The notes under the pieces were generated by a model. That model was not told where the DNA came from and made no database searches. It worked only from the letters and a program-made list of their open reading frames with translations. A program made the position numbers and the translations under genes. 64,000 nt of DNA from Bacteroidia bacterium (GTDB taxonomy: Bacteria > Bacteroidota > Ignavibacteria > SZUA-365), in NCBI GenBank assembly GCA_027493955.1, contig JAOSJT010000001.1:4574552-4638551 (forward strand), in the 5' to 3' direction. Below are positions 21,255 through 64,000 of this stretch, piece by piece (the stretch's first letter is position 1; every line of letters starts with the position of its first letter).

Positions 21255-21444
21255 GAGTTCTCTCCGGAACGAAAGCGGTGCGTCAGACAGTACCCGCACA
21301 TGACGGGATAGTATCACAAGTTCCGAAATCCTGACGCGTGAAACAATGCCATTCGCACTGACCCGTCCCTCGGCGTGCCCTTTTGCACAATGAATGGAAC
21401 CGTTACAAATTTGTTATAACAGAGTACATCAATCGGAGAATGCA
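21255..21444. promoter_or_regulatory. Divergent promoter region
   Basis: 190 bases between two divergently transcribed exported-protein genes. An AT-rich segment at about 21394-21420 contains GTTACAAATTTGTTATAAC, an imperfect inverted repeat that could be a promoter or operator for the plus-strand barrel gene. The exact promoter elements are not resolved. Confidence 0.4.
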
Positions 21445-40500: not shown

Positions 40501-40555
40501 CAACTTCTTCGGGCCGCCCCGTCAGGTGCGTCTCGGTTTGCGTCTGGATTTCTGA
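37529..40555 (+). CDS. TonB-dependent outer-membrane receptor with N-terminal carboxypeptidase-regulatory-like domain
   Basis: A 1008-residue outer-membrane receptor. Signal peptide (LCMLFPVLAHAQ), then a CarboxypepD_reg-like beta-sandwich (KLAGKVTDRETGEPLIGANV) at residues 24-105, a plug domain (EEIENLPVRGVESIVALQAGIV, GTIYVRGSRGDATGYVVDGV) at about 120-220, and a 22-stranded barrel ending VRLGLRLDF with a terminal aromatic residue. The layout is that of SusC-like receptors, but no SusD gene follows. Instead a large T9SS cargo protein and a PorV-like barrel come next, 55 and 66 bases apart, so the three are probably one transcript. Confidence 0.93.
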   Translation: MHKRILITVLCMLFPVLAHAQTGKLAGKVTDRETGEPLIGANVVIDGTDRGAATNINGEYVILNVPIGKITVVSSYIGYQAITIRDVLVRSNETATVDFQLPSDAFKVGEVEIVAEKPLVDKNVTNAKSTVTQEEIENLPVRGVESIVALQAGIVQQGGTIYVRGSRGDATGYVVDGVAANDPVYGGRNISVINNAIAEVSFQAGGYSAEFGGASGGLIATTTRTGGRKIQVGFEAYTDSWSGVGEENFLGSYNYGNSLYALTAGGPLFGPVKFFVAGQNTFLRTPIRYREGYDLANAYDRLLRQTEAHALLSPAEQAKVGIFDPRLGPDAKKVDFTYPAGFIHNNATEGYVLQGNLTFDLNPINVRVGGSYGYNSGRNGAGILSAYQTGRTASLENDVYTLNEGNVSFANQNRALLNQNENYGLNLKMTHLLNQNTFYEVFLGYTGYYNLQMDNDHQHDLFAYGDSAANAAFGYMFDGDGNGPDPLVVFGQRFQPFGFPEEGYAYQKDRYSSVNGKINFVHQIGRTHEVKVGAEAAMYSIRQYDVIPYALKSFLRNNPDANPTQQAVNSRTNYIGYDMWGVESDDALTGPKSPVFASAYALDKIELEDLVINVGLRWDYIDTDSKKFVDPSNVKFDDNGMILDDPSNLEEVDPTSAFSPRLGFSFPVTDQTVFYAQYGKFVQQSRLRDVYLGYAMSASNIRGGYAIENPVGFGLKPETTIQYDFGFRQQIGDFLAFDIGAFYKDIRDQIQVRQIVATPGAQHQAYDAWVNGDFATTTGVSMKIDLRRVERIQASIDYTYSDARGTGSSPSTAFRTIWLSPTETPYLPKYTTPLAFDQTHRGAVNIDYRFSADDGPEFGGVHPLENLGLNMLFTFNSGHPFTLVDDNSYDNRRQPVEVLNESRTPWIFQVDARLDKTVNIAGLNVNFYIWVINLLDTRNVEDVFIQTGSASDNGYLSTDQGRQELLTYSAYGKVYEDLYRDFYYQYNIQNANFFGPPRQVRLGLRLDF

Positions 40556-40610
40556 GCTGGTGGAGGCAGGATTCATGAACGAAGATAGAAGCAATACAAG
40601 GAGACTGAGC

Positions 40611-43600
40611 ATGAAGCTGATCGGAACATTGCTCCTGTTATTCGCTCTGCTGTGCCCCACCACCGCCGTTCAGGCAGGCGGGCATGTCAAGGGTGATAAG
40701 GACAAGAGCAGCATACAAAAGACGTCGAGTAACGACCTCTACGATTTCATCTCTATCAACCAGATCCTGATGTGGATTTCCAATAACGGGTCCACATCAT
40801 ACAATCCGTTTACCAAGGCCTCGGGGCTCGAATGGCCGCAAGGCAGCGGCAAGTACGCCATTTTCCAGGACGGTCTCGTCTGGGGTGGTAAAGTCGGCGG
40901 TGAAATCCGCATCGGCGGTTCCACCTACAGGCAGGGTCTGCAAGCGGGAAACATCAATCCCGACGGCTCTGCGGCAAACGCTGCCGATCCTATCCATCGC
41001 ATTTTCAAGGTGCGTAAGGTAACGCGTACGCAATACAACCTGATGGCCGCAACGGATCAGGCGCGTCTGAAAAAGGACTTTGAGGAATGGCCCGATGAAT
41101 TCGGTGCCCCGTACACCGATGCCGATAACAACGGTCAGTATAACGTGGATTTTGAAGCGTGGCTCGACGGCGGAGCGGTCGACACGCCCTGGTTCATCGG
41201 CGACGAGGTGCTTTGGTTCGTATCCAACGATCTCGATCCCTCACGCACGAGCAACCTCTACGGTTCACCTCCCATCGGTGTGGAAGTGCACACACTGGTT
41301 TGGGGATACAATCAGACCGGACCTCTGGGCAACATGGTGTTCGCGAAATACACCGTAATCAACAAGGGCACGGACGATCTCGAGGACGCGTACTTCGCCC
41401 AGTGGTCCGATCCGGATCTTGGCGACGCGGCTGACGATTTTGTCGGCATTGACACGAACCTCGTGCTCGGATTTTGCTACAACGGTCTGGCGGTGGACGG
41501 CGTGTACGGCGTCCCCCCCGCCGCGGGCTACGACTTCTTCCAGGGCCCGGTTGTACCCGGCGCACCGGAAGATGTAGCGCACTACAATTTCGGTTTGTTG
41601 CAGGGTTGGAAAAACCTCGGTGTTTCTGGCTTTGCCTACTACATCAACAGCGATGCCGTGTATCAGGACCCCGATCTCGGTACTCCGGCAGGCGGCGAGC
41701 AGATGTACAACTATCTGCAATCCCGCTTGTATGACGGCGGACCGTTCATCGATCCCACCACCAACCTCGAGGTGAAAGTCGCCCTTGCCGGTGATCCCAT
41801 CACCAAAACCGGCTGGATAGACGGTATCGTGAATGCGCCGGATGACCGCCGCATGATGATGGTCACAGGTCCTTTCACGCTCAACAAGGACAATGACATT
41901 CCCAACGGCAAGATCAACCGTCAGGAAGTCGTGGTCGCGCGCATCGTGGGACGCGGTTCCGACCGCATCTCCAGTTTGCAGGTGCTCAAGTACTACGACC
42001 GCTACGCACAGCTTGCATTTGACAATAACTTCGATCTGCCCGACGCTCCTCCCGCACCGAAGGTGACGGTCTCCATCAAGCCGAACACGGTGATGCTGAG
42101 CTGGGGCGAGCAGGCCGGCGTGAAAGCCACGGAAATGCACGAGGACGCTGGTTACGTGTTTGAAGGATATAACGTGTACCAGTTCCCGACGCGGAGTTCT
42201 TCCCTGCAGGATGCCAAGAGACTCGCGACGTATGATGTCATCAACAATGTTGCGACGATTTTCGACGAAGTTGTCGATGAGAAAACCGGTGCCGTCGTCG
42301 TGCTGCCTGTGCAGTTCGGCGGTGACACGGGAATTCAGCGACTGATCACCATCACCAATGACGCCATCACGGATCGTCCGCTGGTGAATAATCAACCCTA
42401 TTACTTCGCCGTTACCGCGTATGCCTACAACGACGATCCGGAAGCGGCACCGCGTCAGCTTGAATCCGCTCCGCAAGTCCTTGAAGTGTATCCTCAGACG
42501 GTGAATCCGGGATATCGCTTCGGCGCGGACTACGACGAGCTGATGCAGGTCATGCATACCCGTGGCAGCTCGACAGGGTACCCTGTCGTGAAGACCATTG
42601 ACCCGGTGCTTCTCACAGGTGATTCCTACGAGGTGACCTTCCGCTCCGTCGGCAAGGTTGAAGTCGATTTCCACGGAGAGGAATTACTCGAACTCGACAG
42701 TTACGCATGGACGCTGAAGAACGTCACGAAGAACACCACACTCGTTGCTGACGCGCTCGAGTATGGTGGTGTCGCGGACGGATCTTCTACCGGCTATCTT
42801 GCCGACGGTTTCCAGATCGGTATGGTCGGACAGGGCCATTACGAAGTCGGACACGAATTGCTGGAAGTGCGCTGGGAAGGCGGACCGCAGCAGTACGGTT
42901 CCTACGCGGATGTGTATTTCATCCCCGGTTACGATTTCTTTGGAAGCACGATCAAATCCTACGATGTGAAAAAGACTGTCGAAGTGCGCTTCGACAAGAC
43001 GAAACCATCAAAGGGTTACGTCTTTTTCCGCGGTTCCACACCCAATTACCAGTGTCAGGGATATCACGAATCCCCGATCAGCATCTGGGATGTGACGGAC
43101 AAGGCCAATCCGCGGCAGCTTTCCTGGACGCTTGTCGAGCAGGTGAACGGTCCGGCCCAGGACTTCCAGTTCACACCGACAGCGGCGCAGTCGGATCGCG
43201 AGTATCTGTTCATTCTCGATCATCCGTACAGCGACACGCCCAATCCGACATGGACGGATCCGACCTTCTCCCTCCTTAATCAGGCGGGTGAGATGCCCAT
43301 TCTCTATGCCTGGTGGCCGATAAAGACTGCCACAGCAGGACCGGGCAAGTTCCCCTGGCAGGATGGAGACAAACTGGTTTGGGTTCCGAACATACCGTTC
43401 GACCAGAACGATGTGTACACGTTCACGACAGCAGCACCGAAGTTTACGGTGGAGGCGGCACGCGAGGATATCAACGATATCCAGGTGTTCCCCAATCCGT
43501 ACCTTGGCGCCAGCGCACTGGAGTTAAACAAGTACCAGCGCTTCGTCACAATCAACCATCTCCCCGAGCGTGCAAAATTCCGGATCTACACTGTGTCCGG

Positions 43601-43787
43601 AACTCTCGTGCGTTCGTTCGAGAAGAACGATGCGACGCAGCTCGCTACCTGGGATCTCCAGAATGACAACGGCTTGCCCGTTGCCAGCGGCATGTACCTC
43701 ATCCACATCGACATGCCCGACCTCGGTGTCGAGAAAGTGCTGAAACTCGGTGTCGTCACCGAAGCGCAGTATCTCGACCGCATCTAG
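40611..43787 (+). CDS. Large T9SS-secreted protein of unknown function
   Basis: A 1058-residue secreted protein. The start at 40611 has an AAGGAG site and a clean signal peptide (MKLIGTLLLLFALLCPTTAVQA); an ATG at 40575 is the alternative. The first 550 residues (SNDLYDFISINQILMWISNNG..., GDEVLWFVSNDLD, VVVARIVGRGSDR) have no domain I can name. A fibronectin-like part follows at about 570-720. The C-terminal 100 residues are a T9SS type A sorting domain (IQVFPNPYLGAS, FRIYTVSGTLVRSF, LPVASGMYLIHI). Since it lies between a TonB receptor and a PorV-like barrel, it could be the receptor's surface partner. The function is inferred only from context. Confidence 0.85.
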   Translation: MKLIGTLLLLFALLCPTTAVQAGGHVKGDKDKSSIQKTSSNDLYDFISINQILMWISNNGSTSYNPFTKASGLEWPQGSGKYAIFQDGLVWGGKVGGEIRIGGSTYRQGLQAGNINPDGSAANAADPIHRIFKVRKVTRTQYNLMAATDQARLKKDFEEWPDEFGAPYTDADNNGQYNVDFEAWLDGGAVDTPWFIGDEVLWFVSNDLDPSRTSNLYGSPPIGVEVHTLVWGYNQTGPLGNMVFAKYTVINKGTDDLEDAYFAQWSDPDLGDAADDFVGIDTNLVLGFCYNGLAVDGVYGVPPAAGYDFFQGPVVPGAPEDVAHYNFGLLQGWKNLGVSGFAYYINSDAVYQDPDLGTPAGGEQMYNYLQSRLYDGGPFIDPTTNLEVKVALAGDPITKTGWIDGIVNAPDDRRMMMVTGPFTLNKDNDIPNGKINRQEVVVARIVGRGSDRISSLQVLKYYDRYAQLAFDNNFDLPDAPPAPKVTVSIKPNTVMLSWGEQAGVKATEMHEDAGYVFEGYNVYQFPTRSSSLQDAKRLATYDVINNVATIFDEVVDEKTGAVVVLPVQFGGDTGIQRLITITNDAITDRPLVNNQPYYFAVTAYAYNDDPEAAPRQLESAPQVLEVYPQTVNPGYRFGADYDELMQVMHTRGSSTGYPVVKTIDPVLLTGDSYEVTFRSVGKVEVDFHGEELLELDSYAWTLKNVTKNTTLVADALEYGGVADGSSTGYLADGFQIGMVGQGHYEVGHELLEVRWEGGPQQYGSYADVYFIPGYDFFGSTIKSYDVKKTVEVRFDKTKPSKGYVFFRGSTPNYQCQGYHESPISIWDVTDKANPRQLSWTLVEQVNGPAQDFQFTPTAAQSDREYLFILDHPYSDTPNPTWTDPTFSLLNQAGEMPILYAWWPIKTATAGPGKFPWQDGDKLVWVPNIPFDQNDVYTFTTAAPKFTVEAAREDINDIQVFPNPYLGASALELNKYQRFVTINHLPERAKFRIYTVSGTLVRSFEKNDATQLATWDLQNDNGLPVASGMYLIHIDMPDLGVEKVLKLGVVTEAQYLDRI

Positions 43788-50463: not shown

Positions 50464-50554
50464 AACCCATGGTGCACCAGAAATTGAATTGTTTTCGACA
50501 CGGCGTCTCACAAGTTTACACGTTGTATTTGTCGTTTTCCCGGAGATCCGAAAC

Positions 50555-53500
50555 ATGCGTCCATTAATTCCGGCGATTTTGCTGCTGATTCTCATGTGCG
50601 CGCCCTTCGCGGCTGCGCAGGAACTTCGCGTGCTGTCATCGGATGCGGGCGGTTGTGTGGTCGAGTACACACCGGCCGTTCAGAAAGTCTACGTCGGGAA
50701 CGGCGAGTCACGCTTCGAAATCGAGCGAGGTGTCAGCTTCTATTCCATCGGAGCGCCTCATCTGTTTGTCCGGACAGAATTGCTCGGACTTCCCTCGACG
50801 ACGGGGAATGCCGTGACGGTGCTCGAAATGGATTATCGCGACGAGAGCGGTATCCGATTAGCCATGGTGCGGGAAGGACGTGAAAGCGACGATCAATGGC
50901 AGCCCGAGCGCAGCGTGCTCTATTCCGAGAACGGTTTTCTGCCGGCGGAAAGCGCCATGCTGCGCAATATCGGCGTCGCACGGGACCGCATTCTCGGAGA
51001 TCTGCTGCTCGTACCCGTGCAGTGGAATCCGGCCACACACGTTGCACGCATCGTTACACGGATGCGCGTGCGCATTGATTACGGCGGCGCAACGCAACGA
51101 TTCGATCCGGGTGCCGGCGATGCGACGGCGAATGCGCTTCTCAACGCGGAACAGGCACAGAAGTGGGTGCTCGCACGTCCGACGCGCTTGAATAAAGCCA
51201 CCGGCGCGACAATGGAGAGCGGGAATTGGTATCGTCTCGCCGTACCGCAAACTGGTATGTATCGCTTGACACGGTCCTGGTTCGCCTCCGCGGGTATAGA
51301 CGTCACGACGCTGGATCCTCGCACGATCAAAATGTATGGTGGTGGTGGCCGCGAGTTGCCCCGTGATGTGGATGTCGCACGGGCGCAGCCGTTGATGGAA
51401 ATCGCCATCGAGGTTGTGGGCGGAGAAGACGGCCGTTTTGACGAAGGGGATTATGTGCAGTTTCACGGGATGGGTACCTCCGGCTTTACCTACAATCCCG
51501 CTTCGAAGACGTACTCACATTACATCAATCGCTATACTTCCGAGAACGCCTATCTCCTGACCTTCGGAGGAAGTGCGGGGAAGCGCATGGCGCGCGAGGC
51601 CTCCCTTTCGGAACCGGACGCCTTCCGTCCGGCGTGGTTTCGCGGACGTGAGTTTGAGGAGGAGGAAGTCAACAGTATGCTCAACTCGGGCCTGATGTGG
51701 TTCGGGAAACGGCTGGTCGCGAACGCCGGAAGCGCGGCTGCCATCACCTTTACGCGGAAACTGCACGGTCTGGTGAAGACGGAGCCGGTGTTGTACCGCA
51801 TACAGGTTGCCGGAAGCTCGGAGGTTGATCATGGCTTTAAAGTGCGGGACAGCGAACGCGAAATAGGTACCATCTCTCTCGGTATCGTCAATTTCAATTC
51901 CGATACGGACGATGTGGGAAAAATATCCGGAGCCCGGGAATTCACCGGAACCGCACAGCTCGCCGATGATCGTTCCACGATAACCCTCACCTACTCGTCG
52001 GCAAATGCGGACCGCACACGCGGCGGCTATGTGGACTGGGTGGAGTGGCAGTACGCACGGCGTTTCGAGCCGTTGAACGACGAATTATTGTTCTCCGCGC
52101 CGGACACCAACGCGGTGGTGGAGTTCGTTCTGAATGGCTTCACCATGAGTGATATTCACGTCTATGATGTGACGGACCATACCAATGTCCTCAAGATGGA
52201 CGGAGTGACCGTGAGCGGCGGTACCGTGCGATTTCAGGCGCGAAACGACGCAGGTCGGCCGCGACAGTTCCTCGCCGTGGCAAGTCCGGCGATGAAAGCT
52301 CCGGGTCAGGTTCGCACACTGCCGAATTCCGGTCTCATCGCGTCGACCGGAGCGGAATATCTCATCATAACGCACGACGATCTGGCTTCTGCGGCGCAAC
52401 GGCTTAAGGCGCACAGGGAGCGAGCGGGCGAGGACCAGATCAGCAGCATGGTGGTGCGCACGAGCGAAATCTTCAATGAATTCGCGAGTACCCTGCCCGA
52501 CCATACAGCCATACGGGACTTTCTTGCCTGGTCGCTCGCGAATTGGCAAACACCGCCCCGATACGTGCTCTTTCTCGGAGATGGTCATTTCGACTATCGA
52601 AACATCACCACGAACGAAACCATACTCGTACCGGTGGCCCAGTCCGAGAACTCCATCAACAAAATAGATTCCTATGTTTCCGACGACTACTACGTCAAGC
52701 TTCGTGGTATAGGCAGGAACGACGAGCGCGTGGATGTCGCAAGCGGACGCATCCCGGTACAGACGCTTGAGGAAGCAAACGCTGTTGTGGATAAAATAAT
52801 CGGTTATGAGACAGCTGCGACCTTCGATCCCTGGAAAAACCGTATTACGCTCGTCGCCGATGACGGGTGGACGTCGTTCAAGGACACCGATTTCATCGAA
52901 CATACCTGGCAGTCCGAACGCATGGCGGGGGTGCTTCCGCCGGAGATGGAACAGAAGAAAATCTACATCGTCTCGTACCGGACAGAGAATACCGCTTCGG
53001 GGCGACGCAAACCGGAAGCGGCCAGCGACATCATCGATCAGATAAACAGAGGGACGTTGCTGGTGAATTATACCGGTCACGGTTCTCACGACGTATGGGC
53101 GCACGAGCGCATCTTCATCAATGATGTGACCATACCCCTGCTTCGGAATGCACATCGCCTTCCGTTCATCAGTGCGGCGACGTGTACCTTCGGACTATAC
53201 GATGCCCCCGGGGTACGCAGCGGAACCGAGCAGCTTCTGCTCAAACCCGACGGCGGCAGTATCGGCGGACTGTCCGCCCCGCGCGTGGTCTTTTCCCATG
53301 AGAACAGTGCTTTCAATCGGGAATTTCTGGATCAGTTGCTGTTGAAAGGCCGCGAAAGCGACGGACGCGCAAAACGCATAGGCGAAGCCCTGTACACCGC
53401 CAAGCAGCGGTATAACAATTCTCCCGGCTATGAGAAATTCCATCTCTTCGGCGATCCCGCGCTGCGCATCGCCCTGCCGCGCTACACAGCCGCCCTGGAA

Positions 53501-54553
53501 CGGGTACAAATCAATGGACAGCAGGCCTCCGCCGACACCGTGCAACTCCGCGCGTTGAGCAAAGTCACTCTCGAGGGAAGTGTGCGGAAATCCGACGGCA
53601 GCGTGTGGGAGGATTTCAACGGTGTGACACAGGTCAGTCTTTTCGACGCGCAGCGCGCAGTAGTTGTCGACGAGGCGGGATGGAACAACTTTACCTATCC
53701 ACTCGACGGGGGATTGCTGTATCGCGGGAAGGCGACGATCAGCGGCGGGCGTTTCGCGGTCAACTTTATCATCCCCAAGGATATTTCCTACGAAAACGCC
53801 ACCGGCCGCATCTCGCTGTACTTCGACAACAACGCGGTGGACGGTGCGGGATATTTCACCAGTCTGCGTATCGGCGGATCGGACAGCGCCGCTGTACCTG
53901 ACGACAAGGGGCCCGTCATCGCGTTGTACATGGATACGCGCAACTTCCAGCCGGGAGATCTCGTCAACAGCGACGCTTTGCTCATCGCGGATTTATTCGA
54001 TGAAAGCGGAATCAACACCACGGGCCTCGGCATCGGACATGACATAGAGGCGTGGCTGGACGGTTCCGGCACAAGCATCATTCTGAACGAATTCTACACC
54101 GGAGATGTTGATTCCTATCAAAAGGGCACAGTCGAATACCGATTCCGCGGTTTACAGCCCGGCACACATACGCTGCGATTGCGCGCGTATGACATATTCA
54201 ACAACTCCAGCACTGCCGAGACGTATTTCACCGTCGCCGGCAGTTCGCAACTCACGTTACAGGACGTGTACAATTACCCCAATCCCATGAAGGAGCAGAC
54301 AGCTTTTACCTTCCGACACAATCTGGGCGATCCGGTGAATGTGGACATCAAGGTGTACACCTTGAGCGGACGACAGGTACGTACCATTTCGGCGATGCAT
54401 GTCGCCGAGCGTTTTGTGATGGTACCTTGGGACGGGACGGACGAGGATGGCGATAAACTCGCAAACGGGGTGTATTTGTACAAAGTCATCTGTCGAACGG
54501 TGGACGGCGGCATGGGCAGCGAAGTGCTCGGGCGTCTGTCTCTCCTTCGCTGA
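50555..54553 (+). CDS. porU: Type IX secretion system sortase PorU (C25 gingipain-like peptidase)
   Basis: A 1332-residue surface peptidase that, in characterised T9SS, cleaves the sorting domain of secreted cargo and attaches cargo to lipopolysaccharide. Signal peptide (AILLLILMCAPFAAAQ), a long N-terminal beta-rich region, and a C25 catalytic domain with H842 in LVNYTGHGSHDVW and C877 in FISAATCTFGLYD, so the catalytic pair is intact. The end is itself a T9SS sorting-type domain (YNYPNPMKEQTAFTF, KVYTLSGRQVRTI), as known for PorU. The start at 50555 gives the signal peptide; porV lies 67 bases downstream, the classic gene order in Bacteroidota. Confidence 0.94.
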   Translation: MRPLIPAILLLILMCAPFAAAQELRVLSSDAGGCVVEYTPAVQKVYVGNGESRFEIERGVSFYSIGAPHLFVRTELLGLPSTTGNAVTVLEMDYRDESGIRLAMVREGRESDDQWQPERSVLYSENGFLPAESAMLRNIGVARDRILGDLLLVPVQWNPATHVARIVTRMRVRIDYGGATQRFDPGAGDATANALLNAEQAQKWVLARPTRLNKATGATMESGNWYRLAVPQTGMYRLTRSWFASAGIDVTTLDPRTIKMYGGGGRELPRDVDVARAQPLMEIAIEVVGGEDGRFDEGDYVQFHGMGTSGFTYNPASKTYSHYINRYTSENAYLLTFGGSAGKRMAREASLSEPDAFRPAWFRGREFEEEEVNSMLNSGLMWFGKRLVANAGSAAAITFTRKLHGLVKTEPVLYRIQVAGSSEVDHGFKVRDSEREIGTISLGIVNFNSDTDDVGKISGAREFTGTAQLADDRSTITLTYSSANADRTRGGYVDWVEWQYARRFEPLNDELLFSAPDTNAVVEFVLNGFTMSDIHVYDVTDHTNVLKMDGVTVSGGTVRFQARNDAGRPRQFLAVASPAMKAPGQVRTLPNSGLIASTGAEYLIITHDDLASAAQRLKAHRERAGEDQISSMVVRTSEIFNEFASTLPDHTAIRDFLAWSLANWQTPPRYVLFLGDGHFDYRNITTNETILVPVAQSENSINKIDSYVSDDYYVKLRGIGRNDERVDVASGRIPVQTLEEANAVVDKIIGYETAATFDPWKNRITLVADDGWTSFKDTDFIEHTWQSERMAGVLPPEMEQKKIYIVSYRTENTASGRRKPEAASDIIDQINRGTLLVNYTGHGSHDVWAHERIFINDVTIPLLRNAHRLPFISAATCTFGLYDAPGVRSGTEQLLLKPDGGSIGGLSAPRVVFSHENSAFNREFLDQLLLKGRESDGRAKRIGEALYTAKQRYNNSPGYEKFHLFGDPALRIALPRYTAALERVQINGQQASADTVQLRALSKVTLEGSVRKSDGSVWEDFNGVTQVSLFDAQRAVVVDEAGWNNFTYPLDGGLLYRGKATISGGRFAVNFIIPKDISYENATGRISLYFDNNAVDGAGYFTSLRIGGSDSAAVPDDKGPVIALYMDTRNFQPGDLVNSDALLIADLFDESGINTTGLGIGHDIEAWLDGSGTSIILNEFYTGDVDSYQKGTVEYRFRGLQPGTHTLRLRAYDIFNNSSTAETYFTVAGSSQLTLQDVYNYPNPMKEQTAFTFRHNLGDPVNVDIKVYTLSGRQVRTISAMHVAERFVMVPWDGTDEDGDKLANGVYLYKVICRTVDGGMGSEVLGRLSLLR

Positions 54554-54620: not shown

Positions 54621-55790
54621 ATGAATTGGAAAAGCACTCACGTCGTCAGCGCGATCGCAATCGCGGTGCTTCTGATCGGCCAGGCGCAGGATGTCGCGGC
54701 GCAGACCAGCACGGCGGTTCCGTTTTTGCTGATATCGCCGAGTTCGCGCAACAGCGCGATGGGCGAATCCGGCGTTGCCATCGCCGATGACGTGTCCGCG
54801 ATTTTCTGGAATCCTGCCGGTCTCGGGTTTCAGAAGGGCATGGAGCTGAGCCTGAATCACTCCAACTGGCTGCCGCAGTTTCAGCAGAGTGATCTGTTTT
54901 TCGAATATGCCGGATATCGTATGGATATCCCCTCCATCGGAGGAACCATCGGTACCGCGCTCACTTTTCTGAATCTTGGTGAATTCGAGCGTCGCGACGA
55001 AGGAAACAATTCGCTCGGCACTTTCAAGAGCTTCGAAATCGCCTTCACCGGAAGTTACGGTACGCAACTCGACGAAGACCTCGGTGTGGGTCTGGGATTG
55101 CGCATCATTCACAGCAGCTTGTCTCAGGTCGGCACGGCGCGTGAGCAGGGTTCGGGCACGGCGACGGCGGTTGCGGGTGACGTCGGTATTCTCTATCGCC
55201 CGTCGAAATTCGTCATTCCGTTTACCAATACGGACATTGGCAATCGCTTCGCCATCGGCGCGTCCATCACCAACATCGGTCCATCCATCAGCTACATCGA
55301 TGAGGATCAGGCGGATCCGTTGCCGACGGCCTTGCGCCTTGGCTACCGCTACGACCTGGTGCGCGAGAAGTACAACACCCTGACCTGGACCACCGACGTC
55401 ACGAAGCTGCTCGTCAGTCGTACCGACAAGAAAGCCGACCCCTTCTACGAGGCGGTATTCAAGAGTTGGGATACACCCGGCAACGTATTCAATACCTTCA
55501 CGCTCGGCACTGGCATCGAATACTGGTATTCGCAGCTCGTGGCGCTGCGTTTCGGTTTCTTCCACGAGGATCCGAGCCAGGGCAACCGCCGCTTCCTGAC
55601 CTTCGGTGCGGGCGTGCGTTACGACATTTACGGCTTCGATTTCAGCTACATCAGCACAGCCATTTCCGACGACGACACGGTCAGCCCGCTGTCCGAGACC
55701 TTGCGCTTTACCTTGACGGTCAACTGGGACCGCGGCTCCGGTCCGGCCGACGACGGCACACGCATCCCCGCGGACGACGCCGCGAATTGA
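54621..55790 (+). CDS. porV: Type IX secretion system outer-membrane protein PorV
   Basis: A 389-residue outer-membrane barrel that acts as cargo shuttle between the SprA translocon and PorU. Signal peptide ends at about VAAQ. The mature N-terminus FLLISPSSRNSAMGESGVAIADDVSAIFWNPAGLGF is the PorV hallmark, followed by GMELSLNHSNWLPQF. Strands continue to LRFTLTVNWD, then a short hydrophilic tail ending DDAAN. It lies directly after porU and ends in a strong hairpin, so porUV form a unit. Other T9SS core genes (sprA, porK-N, porT) are not in the window. Confidence 0.95.
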   Translation: MNWKSTHVVSAIAIAVLLIGQAQDVAAQTSTAVPFLLISPSSRNSAMGESGVAIADDVSAIFWNPAGLGFQKGMELSLNHSNWLPQFQQSDLFFEYAGYRMDIPSIGGTIGTALTFLNLGEFERRDEGNNSLGTFKSFEIAFTGSYGTQLDEDLGVGLGLRIIHSSLSQVGTAREQGSGTATAVAGDVGILYRPSKFVIPFTNTDIGNRFAIGASITNIGPSISYIDEDQADPLPTALRLGYRYDLVREKYNTLTWTTDVTKLLVSRTDKKADPFYEAVFKSWDTPGNVFNTFTLGTGIEYWYSQLVALRFGFFHEDPSQGNRRFLTFGAGVRYDIYGFDFSYISTAISDDDTVSPLSETLRFTLTVNWDRGSGPADDGTRIPADDAAN

Positions 55791-56004: not shown

Positions 56005-59000
56005 ATGCAGCGCGCAGGGATTCTCGCGATACTGGTACTACTGACCACAACCTGTCTTCAGGCACAGACGCCGTCACGTTCCGGGGCATTACTCCCCAAA
56101 CTCTCACATGCGTTTGCTCCGCATGCCGGAGATGATGCCGTGCGTGCTCTGCCGGATACCGTGCGGCTGCTCGCGGTGATGGTGGATTTCCCCGAGGACA
56201 CGGATAACCGTACCAGCGGCACGGGGAAGTTCGGATCCATCTATGAGTATGATTACGGCACCGAGATACTCGATCCCATGCCCCATAACCGCGCGCATTT
56301 TCAGCAACATCTGCAATTTCTCGAGAACTATGTCCGGAAGGTGTCGGGACGAAGGACCATCCTCAAGGGCGAGGTGCTCGACGGAATCGTAACGGTGGAC
56401 GGGCCGATCAGTGATTATTCTTTCAGGAAAAACGAGTCCGAAGCGCCGGTGGCGAAGCTGGCCGTGGAAGCGTGGGAGAAAGCGGTCCAACAGTTCAGTA
56501 CAGTGGATTTTTCGCGTTACCACATGTTTGTTGTCTTTCATGCGGGACGCGGGCGCGACATTGATTTGGTGAGCATACAGGGCTTCGATCCCACTCCATT
56601 TGACCTTCCGTCGTTATCATTCACCCATACAGCGTTTCGCCGACTGCTCGGAAACGATTTTCAGGGCGTCGATGCGGGCGGCGGATTTCGGATCACCAAT
56701 TGCGCCGTATTGCCCACCACCAACAATCGCGAGATTTCCAACATCGACGGATCACGGAGTCTCCTGGAGTTGACCATCAATGGTTTGCTCGCCGCCAGCT
56801 TCGGTACCTGGGCGGGTCTGCCAGATCTGTTCGATACCAGGACCGGAAAAACCGGAATCGGGCGCTTCGGCCTGATGGATGGTGAAGGCATTTTCGCCTA
56901 CGGCGGAATATGTCCGCCCGCGCCATCCGCATGGGAGAAACAGCGGCTTGGCTGGACGAGCCCGCGCATTGCCGCTTCCGGTACGCGGAATTATCTCATC
57001 ACCGCTGGCGACTCACTCTCCACCGCGGATGTGATACGTGTGCCGATCACCGACATCGAATATTGGCTGGTGGAGAATCGTCAGCGCGATCTCGGCGGCA
57101 ACGGTCAGCTCGTCACCTTCGTCTCCGGCGGACAAGTACAGCAGTTGCGCTTCCCGAAGGACACCCTGGGTTTCGACAACGGCAATGTATCGCAGCTCAA
57201 GGGCGTGGTGATCGACGTGGAGGATATCGACTGGAGCCTGCCGGGCGGACGCGTGCTCGTAGACGACAAGGAAACCCGCATCAATGGCGGTATTCTCATC
57301 TGGCATATTGATGAAACAGCACTGACGGAGCGCATCGCGCTCAACACCGTCAACGTAACCATGCCGGGGGTGTCCCGTGCAGTGGATCTGGAGCAGGCTG
57401 GTGGGCCGCAGGACATTGGCGTGGATATTCAGACAGTTTTCGGCACGCAGACAGGGAGCGGATCCGCCATCGATTACTGGACAAAGGACAACATCTCGCC
57501 TGTGTACACCAATATGTTCGATCTGCGCAGTTCTCCGAACAGCAGAGCCAATTCGGGCGCCGACGCGCGTGTGGCGATGAAGAATTTTTCCGTCAGCGGA
57601 CCGATCATGACATTGGATATTGCCGTGGGCGATGATGGCTATGCACCGCTTGCGGGTTTCCCGGTGGACTTCGGCGAACAGCTGCAAAGCGGACAGACGT
57701 TGCGCTACATCCGCTCCGCGGATTTGGATGGCGACGGTGTGGACGAGTTGCTGGCGGCCGCAAGCGGAGTGCAGCACGGTTTTCGCCTGCTCGTCAGCCG
57801 TCTCGATGGAACACCGTATCTTCCGACAGGCTACGTCGCAGGAGCGGAGAATTGGGAACTGTCGGACGCACCGGCTGTCGGCGACGTGGATGGCGATGGC
57901 AAGGCTGAGACGGCGGTTATCCTTGAGCAAGGGACTGCACGTGAGGTATACGTCCTCCGTGCAGCCGACAGCGATGCCGATGGAATGCTGGACGTACTGT
58001 ACCGGCAGCGCTTCGAGGGATCGGGCGGCTATCCTGCCCTCGCAAGCACGCTGCCGCAGATTATTCATGGTGCGTTGCTGCTGTACGTACGCGGCTCCGC
58101 CGCCGACAGCATCATTGCAGTCGGCAGCACCGTGCGGAGTTTTTCTGTAGGAACGCCGGGCTTTGAGCCATACGCCGATGTGCGCTTCCTGCCTCTGGAC
58201 GAAGCGGGGATGGTCTACGCGCATACCCCGCAGAGCGGCCTCGCTTTTTCGCTCTCCGGCATGGTACAGCCGCTCCATTTTACATCAATCGTCACAGCTC
58301 CCATTTCTGACGGTACGGCTGCTTTGTCCGCCTCCGCCGACGTTGACGGCGATGGAAAGCGGGAGCTGATAGTCTCCCGCGTCGACGCGACTTCTTCCGG
58401 GACCTCGCAGATCCTGGTCGCTTCTTACGCGCTGGGAGAGGGGACCGATGCGGACGTACGGCCTATCGCGGAGCGGCTGCCGGGGGATCCGGTGATCACT
58501 TCCGGTGCGGTGGCGTGTGCGGACGTGGACGGAGACGGACGTGCGGAAATTCTGTTGCGGAGCGGCGACGGTCTGCTCATGGCATATAACCACACGCTTG
58601 CCCCCGTGGATAACTATCCCGTGTATGCCCGTGCGAAAAAACTGCGCTCGTATCGCGGCGATGCAACGGGAGACGTGGTCGTCTCTTCGGGGTTCGAAAC
58701 GCTGCGCTTTCTTCAGGACAAGGCAGGTACGCGGGAAGGATTTCCGGTCGCTTTCCCGACCGTCAACGACCAGGCGTTGTTGCGCACCGACCGCGGCCGG
58801 CTTGGCATTGCCGCTGTATCGGATCGTGCGCTGTTCGTCTTCGAGCATGCTGTGAATATCGCTATCGGAGATCTGCTGTGGTCAACCGCGAACGCGGACA
58901 GTCGCAACAGCGGACAGACACCCTTGCCGACGCAGAATGTGAGCCCGGGTACCGAGTTTTTCCCGCAGCAGCTCTGTTATAACTGGCCGAATCCCGCTTA

Positions 59001-59238
59001 TGACGGAGTCACCCGCATTCGCTTTTTCGTGTCCGACGATGCGGATGTGACGGTGAAGATTTACGACCTGGCCGGCGACAAGGTGGATGAGCTCAGTACG
59101 CGTGCACGCGGCGGTGTGGACAACGAGATCGTCTGGGATGTCAGCGGCATTCAGAGTGATGTGTACCTCGCGAAGGTCGAGGCAATCGCTCCGGGTAAAA
59201 AAGGCGAGAAAATCATAAAAATCGCCGTGGTGCGCTAG
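56005..59238 (+). CDS. M6-metallopeptidase-like T9SS cargo with destroyed zinc motif
   Basis: A 1077-residue secreted protein. Signal peptide MQRAGILAILVLLTTTCLQAQ; an M6 (immune inhibitor A)-like domain up to about residue 540 (LLAVMVDFPEDTD near the start, later GLPDLFDTRTGKTGIGRFGLMDGEG and SAWEKQRLGW); FG-GAP/VCBS-like repeats with calcium-type loops DLDGDGVDELL, DVDGDGKAETA, DVDGDGKRELI and DVDGDGRAEIL at about 575-860; and a T9SS sorting domain from NWPNPAYDG to the end. Where M6 enzymes have HEFGH, this protein has A264-S265-F266-G267-T268, so all three zinc/catalytic residues are missing while the flanking GLPDLFD and LMDG are kept. It is therefore probably an inactive, binding version. 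Confidence 0.87.
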   Translation: MQRAGILAILVLLTTTCLQAQTPSRSGALLPKLSHAFAPHAGDDAVRALPDTVRLLAVMVDFPEDTDNRTSGTGKFGSIYEYDYGTEILDPMPHNRAHFQQHLQFLENYVRKVSGRRTILKGEVLDGIVTVDGPISDYSFRKNESEAPVAKLAVEAWEKAVQQFSTVDFSRYHMFVVFHAGRGRDIDLVSIQGFDPTPFDLPSLSFTHTAFRRLLGNDFQGVDAGGGFRITNCAVLPTTNNREISNIDGSRSLLELTINGLLAASFGTWAGLPDLFDTRTGKTGIGRFGLMDGEGIFAYGGICPPAPSAWEKQRLGWTSPRIAASGTRNYLITAGDSLSTADVIRVPITDIEYWLVENRQRDLGGNGQLVTFVSGGQVQQLRFPKDTLGFDNGNVSQLKGVVIDVEDIDWSLPGGRVLVDDKETRINGGILIWHIDETALTERIALNTVNVTMPGVSRAVDLEQAGGPQDIGVDIQTVFGTQTGSGSAIDYWTKDNISPVYTNMFDLRSSPNSRANSGADARVAMKNFSVSGPIMTLDIAVGDDGYAPLAGFPVDFGEQLQSGQTLRYIRSADLDGDGVDELLAAASGVQHGFRLLVSRLDGTPYLPTGYVAGAENWELSDAPAVGDVDGDGKAETAVILEQGTAREVYVLRAADSDADGMLDVLYRQRFEGSGGYPALASTLPQIIHGALLLYVRGSAADSIIAVGSTVRSFSVGTPGFEPYADVRFLPLDEAGMVYAHTPQSGLAFSLSGMVQPLHFTSIVTAPISDGTAALSASADVDGDGKRELIVSRVDATSSGTSQILVASYALGEGTDADVRPIAERLPGDPVITSGAVACADVDGDGRAEILLRSGDGLLMAYNHTLAPVDNYPVYARAKKLRSYRGDATGDVVVSSGFETLRFLQDKAGTREGFPVAFPTVNDQALLRTDRGRLGIAAVSDRALFVFEHAVNIAIGDLLWSTANADSRNSGQTPLPTQNVSPGTEFFPQQLCYNWPNPAYDGVTRIRFFVSDDADVTVKIYDLAGDKVDELSTRARGGVDNEIVWDVSGIQSDVYLAKVEAIAPGKKGEKIIKIAVVR

Positions 59239-59404
59239 GGGCGGCGTGTTGCGGAAAGCAGGCGCGGTCGAAGCCGTTTGTTCACTGATGGATCAGGGAA
59301 CACAAAAGATGCACCCGGGCACCGTTCTGCGATCCCCGAGGCATCAGGAATTCTGTCATAAGCGACGAGCATTCTTTCATCTCACTCTATCGGAAAATCG
59401 TATC

Positions 59405-62400
59405 ATGATGATGACGATGCGTGCCATACCGGCGCTCCTTCTGCTTTTCGTGTTTGGATCTGTTCTTCATGCGCAGCCGGACAGCTATTCCGCTCCGGAG
59501 AAGGATTGGTTTACCATTACCACGAAGCATTTTCACGTGCATTATCATGAAGGCGCGGAGCGTACAGCGCGTGTGGTGGCAAAGATCGCCGAAGATGTGT
59601 ACGGTCCGATCACCTCGCTGTACGATCACGAGCCCGATCAGCGCATCAGTTTTGTGATCAAGGACATCTCGGACTACGCGAACGGCGCGGCGTATTTTTT
59701 CAACAACAAGATCGAGATTTGGGCCTCGCCTCTGGATTTCGAACTGCGCGGAACGCACAACTGGCTGCGTAATGTGATCACGCATGAGTTCACGCACGTG
59801 ATTCAGATCCAGGCCGCGATGAAATTCGGACGTGGCATTCCCGCGCTGACATTTCAGTGGTTCGGGTATGAAAAGGAACGCCGCCGCGACGTGTTGTACG
59901 GATATCCCAACACACTGGTGTCGTATCCCTTTCCCGGCGTGGTGGTACCGCCCTGGTTCGCCGAAGGCACGGCGCAGTTCCAACGCGACAGACTCGGGTA
60001 TGAGAACTGGGATGCGCATCGGGACATGATATTGCGTAGTTACGTGCTTGCCGATTCCATGCTCAGTTGGGGTGAGATGAGCGCGTTCGGAAAAACCAGC
60101 CTCGGCAACGAGAGCGTGTACAATTCCGGCTACAATCTCACGCGCTATATCGCGCGGAAGTACGGCGAGGACAAGCTGGCGGATATCACCCGCGCTTTGA
60201 GCAAGCCGTTCACATTCACGATTGACGCCGCCGTCAAAGATGTACTCGGCATCAGCGGCCGTGCCCTGTACGCAGAATGGGCCTCAGCCCTCAAGGACGA
60301 GTATGCGGCACGCACCGCGCCCATACGAAAAAATCGCATCGAGGGTGATATTATCGCGGGTGTCGGTTTCGCCAATTTCTATCCGCGCTATTCACCGGAC
60401 GGAAAATGGATCGCCTATGTCTCGAACAAGACCTCCGATTACATGGGGCAATCCGCGCTGTACATTCGGCGGGCGGACAGCACCGCAGAGCGCATGGCCG
60501 TTCCCGGTGTGCGTTCCGCCATTTCCTGGTCACCGGACGGCAAGAAAATCGTGTACTCGAAGTACAACACACCGACCGTGCAGGGCCATATCTACTACGA
60601 TCTGTACGTGTATGATGTGGAAAAAGAAGAGGAGAAGCGTCTGACCCGCGGATTACGCGCGTTCAATCCCGCCTGGTCTCCCGACGGATCACGCATCGCG
60701 TTCGTGCACGGCGCGGACGGAACGATCAATCTTTCCACTGTGGACGCACAGGGAGGGAACCGGGTACAGCTCACCAAGTATGCGCATGGTGAGCAGGTGT
60801 TCACCCCAACCTGGTCTCCCGATGGTGCCTGGATTGCGTTCGCCTTTGCTCCGCGCACGCATCGTGGGCTGGCGCGCATCCGGCCCGACGGCAGCGGGTT
60901 CGAGACCATTCTCCATGAGCCCGCGAATGATTGTCGCGATCCGCGCTACACTTCCGACGGAAAACATCTCCTCTATTCCAGCGATCGGACGGGCATTTTC
61001 AATATCTATCGTCTCGATCCCGGATCCGGTACACGGACGCAGCTCACCAACGTTTTGGGTGGTGCTTTCATGCCTGATCAGGATGCAGCCGGGAATCTCG
61101 TCTATGCCGCATACACTGCGGGCGGATATAAAATTGCGCGGCTCGCCACCGGCGGGACGGTTGAGCCCGGGATGTACGATTACCTGCCTCCCGTGCAATA
61201 TTCCTCGCCCATCGCTTCGGCGGATGCGGAATGGGATTGGGACGCGTTGAACAATTTCGATGACACACGTATCGAGGAGAGCACACCGTCCGTGTACGAA
61301 CGCCTGTTCATGAGCATGATGTATTTCCCGACGATACGCGTTGACGGCTTCAATCCCGACAACAGCGGTCTCGAGCTGCTCAAACCCGGTTTGATGATGT
61401 ACTCGTCCGATATGCTGTCGCGCCTGGAGTTCCTGGCCAGCGCGTCGATCAACATCAAGGCCGAGCGCGATCTGTATCTGAATGTGACGTATCGCGACAA
61501 GCTGCCTATTTTCAGTAGTCTCGGCCTGTTTCCCGACCTGTCCCTCGAGGTGTTCAATGTGACCCGCGGCACTTCGACCAGCATACCGCTGCCGCTCGAT
61601 ACGGTGGGAGTGGATGTGGATTTCAATCTGCTGGAATTCGCCGTGCGTCTGGGGCATAACATCGCCAACGATCACATGCGTCTGGAGGTGGGGTATTCCC
61701 ACAGCCGGTACACGTCGACGCTCGGGAGTTTCCGAAATCCGGACAATGATATGCTGATACCCGCGCGGGACAACCTGTATCTCGTCGGCAATGACCTCAG
61801 TGTGGTATTCCGGTACAGGAACATCGTCCCGACCCGCGATCATGAAATCAGTCCGATCGGTACGCGCTTCACCCTCCGGTATGATCATGAATTCAACAAT
61901 TACAATCCCGACGGCGATTTTGAAATTGACCGCAACAGCGGTCTGCTCATTCCCCTGTACCGGGATTTCAATTTCCACCGATTTGATGCGCATCTCAGCA
62001 TCGGTGCGCGGTTGCCGTGGCTCGAGCATGCTCTGAGCGTGCGCTTGCGCGGCGCGACAATCCTTGGCGAGCCCGTGGACGATTTTTTCAATTTCTATGC
62101 GGGCGGCATCACCGGCATGCAGGGGTACACGTATTACTCGCTCGGAGGCAATGAACTCGCCGCGGCACAGATCACGTATCGTTTCCCGATCATTTCCAGC
62201 ATGGATTTCCGCCTCGGACATGTACTGTTCGACAAGCTCTACGGGGGCGTGTTCATGGACATCGGCGACGCTGTGATGGATCCGGAGCAGTTCACGGTAG
62301 GGAATTTGAAGAAGAACGTGGGTTTCGAATTACGGCTGGAGACATTCTCCTTTTCCATGTATCCGACCCGGATATTCTTCAGCGGCGCGTACGGATTGGA

Positions 62401-62503
62401 TGAGTTCACCCGGACGTTTCAGTTCACCGATGTGACCTACGGCAAAGAGTGGCGCTGGTATTTCGGTATGCTTTTCGGCTTCGATCTGAGCGACGGATTT
62501 TAG
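59405..62503 (+). CDS. Gluzincin peptidase fused to a PD40 beta-propeller and an outer-membrane barrel
   Basis: A 1032-residue exported protein with three parts. A signal peptide ends at VLHAQ. The peptidase-MA-like domain (about 30-310) has H127-E-F-T-H131 in VITHEFTHVIQIQ and a downstream E187 in PPWFAEGTAQF, the gluzincin zinc set, so it looks active. A TolB/WD40-like propeller (about 315-640) carries PD40 motifs YSPDGKWIAYVS, WSPDGKKIVYSK, WSPDGSRIAFVH and WSPDGAWIAFAF. The last 350 residues form an Omp85/surface-antigen-like barrel (GGITGMQGYTYYSLGGNELAAAQITYRFP) ending FGFDLSDGF. The start at 59405 has GGAAAA upstream; earlier codons are not signal-peptide-like. Probably cell-surface or periplasmic proteolysis. 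Confidence 0.88.
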   Translation: MMMTMRAIPALLLLFVFGSVLHAQPDSYSAPEKDWFTITTKHFHVHYHEGAERTARVVAKIAEDVYGPITSLYDHEPDQRISFVIKDISDYANGAAYFFNNKIEIWASPLDFELRGTHNWLRNVITHEFTHVIQIQAAMKFGRGIPALTFQWFGYEKERRRDVLYGYPNTLVSYPFPGVVVPPWFAEGTAQFQRDRLGYENWDAHRDMILRSYVLADSMLSWGEMSAFGKTSLGNESVYNSGYNLTRYIARKYGEDKLADITRALSKPFTFTIDAAVKDVLGISGRALYAEWASALKDEYAARTAPIRKNRIEGDIIAGVGFANFYPRYSPDGKWIAYVSNKTSDYMGQSALYIRRADSTAERMAVPGVRSAISWSPDGKKIVYSKYNTPTVQGHIYYDLYVYDVEKEEEKRLTRGLRAFNPAWSPDGSRIAFVHGADGTINLSTVDAQGGNRVQLTKYAHGEQVFTPTWSPDGAWIAFAFAPRTHRGLARIRPDGSGFETILHEPANDCRDPRYTSDGKHLLYSSDRTGIFNIYRLDPGSGTRTQLTNVLGGAFMPDQDAAGNLVYAAYTAGGYKIARLATGGTVEPGMYDYLPPVQYSSPIASADAEWDWDALNNFDDTRIEESTPSVYERLFMSMMYFPTIRVDGFNPDNSGLELLKPGLMMYSSDMLSRLEFLASASINIKAERDLYLNVTYRDKLPIFSSLGLFPDLSLEVFNVTRGTSTSIPLPLDTVGVDVDFNLLEFAVRLGHNIANDHMRLEVGYSHSRYTSTLGSFRNPDNDMLIPARDNLYLVGNDLSVVFRYRNIVPTRDHEISPIGTRFTLRYDHEFNNYNPDGDFEIDRNSGLLIPLYRDFNFHRFDAHLSIGARLPWLEHALSVRLRGATILGEPVDDFFNFYAGGITGMQGYTYYSLGGNELAAAQITYRFPIISSMDFRLGHVLFDKLYGGVFMDIGDAVMDPEQFTVGNLKKNVGFELRLETFSFSMYPTRIFFSGAYGLDEFTRTFQFTDVTYGKEWRWYFGMLFGFDLSDGF

Positions 62504-62636: not shown

Positions 62637-64000
62637 ATGCGCACCAGTCTGCTCAGGTATCTTTTCCGTCTTGAATACGTCCTTGCCTCGGCACTCGTGC
62701 TGGTGCTGGTGTGGTGTATGATCGTCATTTCGGACAATCTTCCCGAGACGGACGATACGTCCTTCCTCAATCCCATCTTTGACCGTATCGATTTTCTGAA
62801 CATCGCCGACGTCAGTCTGGACGCCGTATTCGCCGTCCGCGACGCCGAGTTTCCCGATCCGAGGATAAAGGTGGTGAACCTGGGGGAAGTAGCTCCTACG
62901 CCCGATGGCAAAATCGCCATGCTGTTGTATAAACTGCACGCCAGCGGGGCCAGAGTTATCGGTCTCGATGTGTTTCTCGATGCGCTGCACGTGGAGCGCT
63001 TTCCGGAGGAGCGCCTGTCGGAGTTCGATGCGCTGGTCCAGGCCCTGCGGGATGTTCCCAACGTCGTTGTGGTATCCGGTTTCGACAAGGAGAGCATGGA
63101 GCCTGAGATTGAATTGCATCCTCTCGTGCTGGAGGCCGATCCCGCGCAGGGATTCGCAAATCTGTGGCCCGATGCCGACGGTGTGGTGCGCCGCTTCCTC
63201 CCCCGCGCGACGGTGGCTGGAGAGGAATGGTATGGACTGCCGGTACGCATGCTGCAGTTGTATGACAGCGGACTCGTCAGCAAGCTGCTGCGTTTACCCG
63301 CGGAACCACAGATCATTTACTACACAGGGACGTATCACCAGTTCGAGTCCGTCCCCATTGATGATGTCGTGTTTGGCACGATGTACGATGACGAGTATTT
63401 CCGGGACGCGATCGTTCTTATCGGTTTTGTGAACGAAGGAGGATTGTTCTATCTCGGCGACACACACAAGACGCCGATGGGGAAAAAGATTGAGGTGGAG
63501 GGGCCGGACATGCCCGGTGTGCTCATCCATGCGAATGTAATCAACATGCTGTTGCGCGACCGCTTCATCGTCCCCGTTCCGGAATGGGTGGATTGGTTGT
63601 TGGTATTCGTCCTGTCATACCTCAGTCTCGCTCTCTACAGAGTGTTGCGCACAAAGGCGCGGAACAGATTTCATGTCGGGCTGCTCATCAGCACGATGCT
63701 GCTGACAGAGGCAGTCATGGTGTTTTTCCTGCCGTTGATCGCATTTTTCTATTTCGATTTGAAGATCAGTTACAACCTGATGGCGACGGGCGCACTGTTG
63801 TTCATCCCCGCCGGCGCCGCGGTGACGAAGATGCAGTACCATCTGGAGCGGCGCAGGTTTGCGCGCAGTATTGGTATCGGGAAGGAGGGAATGCCCGCCG
63901 TGCTTCGCGAGGCCTTCGCCGACGACGAGCCGTTTGTGTCCAACATCCGCCTGCTGCATGCCTGTCTGTGTGGTGTACAGTTTGCCTGGGCATGCGAAAA
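62637..64000 (+). CDS. CHASE2-domain sensor protein (3' end outside window)
   Basis: The frame is open from the ATG at 62637 to the window end (454 residues seen). An N-terminal helix (YVLASALVLVLVWCMIVI) is followed by an extracytoplasmic CHASE2 domain (VSLDAVFAVRDAEFPDPRIKVVNLGE, ARVIGLDVFLD, GVVRRFLPR, DAIVLIGFVNEGGLF, MPGVLIHANVINMLL) and three further helices at about 320-400, the standard CHASE2 topology. The output domain, often an adenylate cyclase, kinase or GGDEF domain, lies beyond the edge. It follows the barrel-fused peptidase gene by 133 bases in the same direction. Confidence 0.88.
   Translation, partial: MRTSLLRYLFRLEYVLASALVLVLVWCMIVISDNLPETDDTSFLNPIFDRIDFLNIADVSLDAVFAVRDAEFPDPRIKVVNLGEVAPTPDGKIAMLLYKLHASGARVIGLDVFLDALHVERFPEERLSEFDALVQALRDVPNVVVVSGFDKESMEPEIELHPLVLEADPAQGFANLWPDADGVVRRFLPRATVAGEEWYGLPVRMLQLYDSGLVSKLLRLPAEPQIIYYTGTYHQFESVPIDDVVFGTMYDDEYFRDAIVLIGFVNEGGLFYLGDTHKTPMGKKIEVEGPDMPGVLIHANVINMLLRDRFIVPVPEWVDWLLVFVLSYLSLALYRVLRTKARNRFHVGLLISTMLLTEAVMVFFLPLIAFFYFDLKISYNLMATGALLFIPAGAAVTKMQYHLERRRFARSIGIGKEGMPAVLREAFADDEPFVSNIRLLHACLCGVQFAWACE

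Follow-up and report, generated by a model that had tools for sequence, protein, structure and literature searches.

We identified a strict pairing, across the sampled Bacteroidota genomes, between a gene for an inactivated M6-like metalloprotease (M6i) and the gene that follows it in the window (the whole 64,000-nucleotide stretch of DNA analysed here), which encodes an apparently live outer-membrane peptidase (MA). The pairing has survived some ten gains or losses, and it holds where the two genes have become separated. Homologous sequences indicate that M6i is an ancient pseudoprotease that has been under selection. We put at about even the chance that M6i is delivered by PorV, binds a ligand in its dead cleft and is the obligate partner of the MA peptidase; we infer the contact between the two proteins, the ligand and the activity.

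The family to which M6i belongs is named in NCBIfam (NF052323, "T9SS-dependent M6-like inactivated metalloprotease"). Thus, the inactivated peptidase is already known and is not in itself new. The new part is the pairing with MA, and the NF052323 entry states neither this partnership nor constraint on the dead site. No paper on the family was found in literature searches, which is weak evidence of absence as most subscription journals were outside their coverage. The initial annotation of this DNA overlooked both the family name and the downstream gene for an apparently live peptidase.

Domain layout and dead active site of M6i

M6i (56005..59238, + strand; 1077 aa) matches NF052323 with 678.5 bits (cut-off 600) and is present in a single copy in its genome, which has a T9SS (SprA and PorU are present). 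Pfam matches and an AlphaFold2 model give the order, after the signal peptide, as pseudoprotease, FG-GAP propeller and T9SS C-terminal domain (CTD). The signal peptide reported by the initial annotation reads as a Sec signal peptide at residues 1-20 (56005..56064, + strand), with cleavage before Gln21; it was read by eye from the sequence MQRAGILAILVLLTTTCLQA|Q, where the junction is ...TTCLQA|QTPS. The pseudo-M6 (metzincin-like) domain covers about residues 45-543 (56137..57633, + strand; pLDDT mostly 80-97). The FG-GAP beta-propeller, at about residues 544-952 (57634..58860, + strand), was identified by a Pfam FG-GAP_3 match (7e-15) and by structural matches to propellers (Z 12-14). The pseudo-M6 domain and the CTD are modelled with high confidence, and much of the propeller with low confidence. 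Four DxDGDG repeats had been taken as calcium-type repeats; all four are exact (at residues 573, 627, 779 and 840), and there is an additional DSDADG at residue 655, but they are loops of the FG-GAP propeller rather than a separate calcium module.

The T9SS type A-like CTD (about residues 988-1077; 58966..59235, + strand) is real, although weak against generic models: it scores under the cut-off for both Por_Secre_tail (25.4 bits; cut-off 27) and TIGR04183 (18.5 bits; cut-off 23). The NF052323 model spans it and its pLDDT is high. In a profile search, a CTD profile built from M6i picks up the CTDs of PorU (median 34 bits) and PorZ (27-31 bits), a resemblance that holds for the loci read and for a comparison that included few cargo CTDs.

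The initial annotation proposed a peptidase fold, and superposition of the predicted structure bears this out. Residues 19-545 of the model align on the zymogen of the M6 enzyme InhA2 (4YU5) with Z 22.3 over 397 residues (rmsd 4.3; VIA-align), and the propeller matches of the same model score lower (Z 13.9 and below). The relation to solved M6 structures appears by fold only. Searches of PDB sequences gave no M6 match with the single protein, nor with the M6i profile, whose hits were confined to PorZ, propellers and the CTDs of gingipains and were not significant; propellers also dominate the results of a plain Foldseek search. M6i shares with MEROPS M6 and immune inhibitor A2 (4YU5, 4YU6) the fold, the GLPDL[FY] motif and the Met-turn region. 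It differs from them in lacking HExxH and in carrying a propeller and a T9SS CTD.

The hallmark of metzincins is HExxHxxG/NxxH/D together with a Met-turn (PMC12237041). As first annotated, residues 264-268 of M6i read ASFGT in place of HExxH, within LLAASFGTWAGLPDLFD...GRFGLMDGEG. In an alignment with M6 proteins of the same phylum that score over the TIGR03296 cut-off, ASFGT falls column for column under HE[FYLM]GH. In these bona fide M6 proteins, the motif is HEFGH, HEYGH, HELGH or HEMGH, with GLPD or GMPD after it. The active relatives thus read HExGHxxGxPD where M6i reads ASFGTxxGxxD. Both zinc histidines and the glutamate are missing, and G271, D274 (at the position of the third ligand) and the Met-turn residue M291 are retained.

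The dead active site (residues 264-293; 56794..56883, + strand) is highly conserved. HExxH occurs at the site in none of 143 distinct full-length homologues, in which the first residue of the motif is A, S, G or N, the second S, N, T, M, Q or I, and the fifth S, N, T or G. N259, G260 and D274 are invariant in this set; G271 is retained in 141 of the 143 and M291 in 137. No other 30-residue window of M6i is as conserved as residues 264-293 (0.74, compared with a mean of 0.20 for the propeller), and mean pairwise identity is 68% in residues 255-320, 45% in the pseudo-M6 domain and 20% in the propeller. In comparisons of close pairs, the whole of M6i gives a dN/dS of about 0.04-0.13, and the value is lowest (<=0.064) in residues 255-320, with some dS values near saturation. 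These data strongly support the proposal of a selected, non-catalytic module, and mutation of this copy alone, the finding that would have pointed the other way, is excluded. Recent inactivation was therefore rejected.

Survival of catalysis through another metal site, or loss in this genome only, is very improbable. Conserved acidic residues and His179 do remain in the pseudo-M6 domain. However, His179 and its context are common to active M6 proteins, the domain has a single His column that is at least 95% conserved, and the residues missing from the zinc motif are missing from every homologue. The strongest constraint falls on the former catalytic part despite the loss of catalysis, which points to ligand binding there; the dead cleft is a candidate ligand-binding site.

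The porU-porV-M6i-MA operon and the downstream peptidase

Matches to NCBIfam models verify the initial placement of M6i directly downstream of porU and porV. PorU, the C25 sortase (50489..54553, + strand; likely real start about 50555), scores 993 bits against NF033707 (cut-off 420), and PorV, the outer-membrane shuttle (54621..55790, + strand), scores 256 bits against NF033710 (cut-off 250). The catalytic His864 and Cys899 of PorU are present in 95 of 95 aligned PorU sequences. The gene order porU-porV-M6i-MA is widely conserved among loci with sufficient flanking sequence: PorV adjoins M6i in 97 of 98 loci, PorU is present in 87 of 98, and MA lies downstream of M6i in 97 of 111, although some of the loci counted may share one species. 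Record titles of the relatives include Ignavibacteria, Melioribacteraceae, Kryptonia and Thermochlorobacter.

The MA gene (59246..62503, + strand; likely real start about 59405) encodes a protein with Pfam matches to Peptidase_MA_2, PD40 and Omp85. No NCBIfam equivalog model scores over its cut-off for MA. A zinc motif, HEFTH, is encoded at 59783-59797, and Glu240 is also present; H180, E181, H184 and E240 are found in 100 of 100 homologues. The structural model (pLDDT 81) comprises a gluzincin domain at residues 88-362, a TolB-like propeller of six blades at 366-633 and a barrel of 16 strands at 692-1077, with structural matches of the propeller to TolB (Z 28) and of the barrel to BamA (8xnb, Z 21.9). 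With its zinc residues intact, MA is apparently a live outer-membrane gluzincin peptidase. The even-stranded, BamA-like barrel predicts that its peptidase side faces the periplasm.

Co-occurrence of M6i and MA in relation to the T9SS

The distribution of the two genes was determined in 296 genomes of Bacteroidota, the phylum of the window, that are at least 90% complete. M6i was identified in 114 of them (109 over the cut-off, and five under the cut-off that match the M6 region). MA orthologues were also identified in 114, at E about 4e-94 or better; this call uses a gap in E-values between the weakest orthologue (about 4e-94) and the next match (1.9e-42), which is the best non-orthologous match and comes from an M6i-negative genome. 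The two sets of genomes are identical: both genes are present in 114, neither in 182, and none has one without the other. M6i and MA are on separate contigs in about a dozen genomes, most of which are draft assemblies. Cases in which the genes are unlinked yet retained together include G005, where they are 0.86 Mb apart on one contig, G271, where they are on two large contigs, G133 and others.

A FastTree phylogeny of SprA from 77 genomes, a single-gene tree that may depart from species history in places, requires 10 changes to account for the distribution of M6i, and nine of these fall on supported branches. In all nine supported independent changes, MA is concordant with M6i (sign test p 0.0039). 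The corresponding values are about 1.1 of nine for PorU and about 1.5 of seven for PorZ. Three or so joint losses fall in family f31, whose M6i and MA genes lie side by side, and may be single deletions without a functional tie.

These results bear on two other explanations. It is improbable that M6i, on its old peptidase fold, is one of the ordinary adhesins or binding proteins that the T9SS places on the surface, co-occurring with MA through a shared niche. Cargo proteins typically have a signal peptide, a propeller and a CTD, and the M6i propeller is as variable (20% mean identity) as might suit such a protein, but the concordant changes and the co-retention of unlinked genes argue otherwise, as do the single copy of M6i in this genome and the 42% mean identity of its CTD among homologues. 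The second possibility, quite unlikely in our view, is that MA processes M6i or anchors it at the surface, making M6i its substrate or passenger rather than a partner subunit. The perfect co-occurrence, the shared operon and the presence in MA of both an outer-membrane barrel and an intact peptidase would all fit, yet this gives no reason for the dead cleft to be under stronger constraint than the rest of M6i.

We also compared the distribution of the pair with those of T9SS components. PorU was not identified in 13 of the 35 genomes of family f31 (CTD-type matches only), and nine of these 13 keep M6i, in loci where PorV-M6i-MA is intact; PorZ was sought in two of the nine, and neither has a full-length match. 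SprA is present in all of these genomes, and PorV is over its cut-off in 24 of 24 genomes tested, including those that have lost M6i and MA. SprA and PorV are thus retained in genomes without the pair, and many genomes with PorU, PorZ, SprA and PorV have no M6i, so that M6i does not follow the core or attachment components in its presence. Loss of M6i and MA with SprA and PorV kept, together with the PorU-less carriers, identifies M6i and MA as an accessory pair to the SprA-PorV core, neither part of that core nor a substitute for PorZ. PorU is dispensable for the M6i-MA module. The porUV link suggested by the initial annotation therefore stands as far as gene order is concerned, but in presence and absence the partner is MA and not PorU.

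PorZ of the T9SS attachment complex (5M11) resembles M6i in having a propeller and a similar CTD and in being a T9SS-dependent surface component; unlike M6i, it has no M6 domain. M6i and PorZ occur together in 34 of the 36 M6i genomes tested (scores at or just under the cut-off excluded). M6i as a replacement for PorZ was rejected, because nearly all of these genomes have PorZ over the cut-off. M6i as a partner of PorU2 (NF052324) was also rejected, as there is no association and the porU-less genomes lack PorU2 as well.

It is rather unlikely that M6i is a resident subunit of the attachment complex, acting with the PorU sortase and PorZ in CTD cleavage and anchoring, its dead cleft holding a cargo CTD or the PorU prodomain. 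In favor of such a role, porU and porV share the operon with M6i in most loci, and in the sequences examined the M6i CTD is closest to the component-type CTDs of PorU and PorZ, although few cargo CTDs were in that comparison. Against it are the nine genomes that have M6i, PorV and MA and lack PorU (the two tested lacking PorZ too) and the many genomes with PorU and PorZ that lack M6i.

Possible function of the pair

Proteins with type A CTDs use, and are collected by, the PorV shuttle (PMC12618676). Thus, M6i is most likely a PorV client. After Sec export, M6i would pass out through SprA and be taken by PorV to the cell surface. There its former substrate cleft may bind a peptide or a protein as ligand and leave it uncut, and M6i could serve as a recognition, docking or regulatory subunit for the MA peptidase. 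In the T9SS-secreting outer membrane, the pair may act as an accessory module for processing or quality control. It is uncertain whether the two catalytic folds are in direct contact, because the MA peptidase is predicted to be periplasmic and a T9SS substrate ends up outside. Contact could run through the MA barrel, could occur during transit, or could be indirect. A PorU-related role of M6i is also conceivable, since PorU is present in most M6i genomes.

More speculatively, and with considerable doubt on our part, M6i and MA may constitute an undescribed T9SS accessory module of Ignavibacteria-like, Kryptonia-like and other Bacteroidota. In such a module, a PorV-delivered dead metzincin cleft would present substrates to, or regulate, an Omp85-barrel gluzincin, and, in genomes that have lost PorU, could stand in for sortase processing or add to it. 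The alpha and beta subunits of mitochondrial processing peptidase are a pair of inactive and active proteases. The likeness is that a dead protease-fold subunit always occurs with a live protease; in contrast to the homologous subunits of that enzyme, the dead fold here is of the metzincin type and its partner is a gluzincin carried by an outer-membrane barrel. Through the pairing, two genes of the porUV operon that are uncharacterised acquire a function open to testing, and the porU-less, porV-positive genomes provide a natural setting in which to study the handling of T9SS cargo without the sortase.

Other genes in the window were also identified. A gene at 18666-21317 (- strand) encodes an 884-aa, partly glycosylhydrolase-like protein whose T9SS type A sorting domain scores 30.7 bits, over the cut-off; it is an ordinary T9SS cargo protein whose CTD resembles that of M6i. 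Downstream of a SusC/TonB-like receptor (37529-40555), a gene at 40344-43787 encodes an 1147-aa protein whose C-terminus matches the PorZ/PorU-type CTD (43.5 bits to NF052228). The operon is followed by a gene for a CHASE2-domain protein (62637-64000, continuing past the end of the window), which lies outside the conserved cluster in the loci read.
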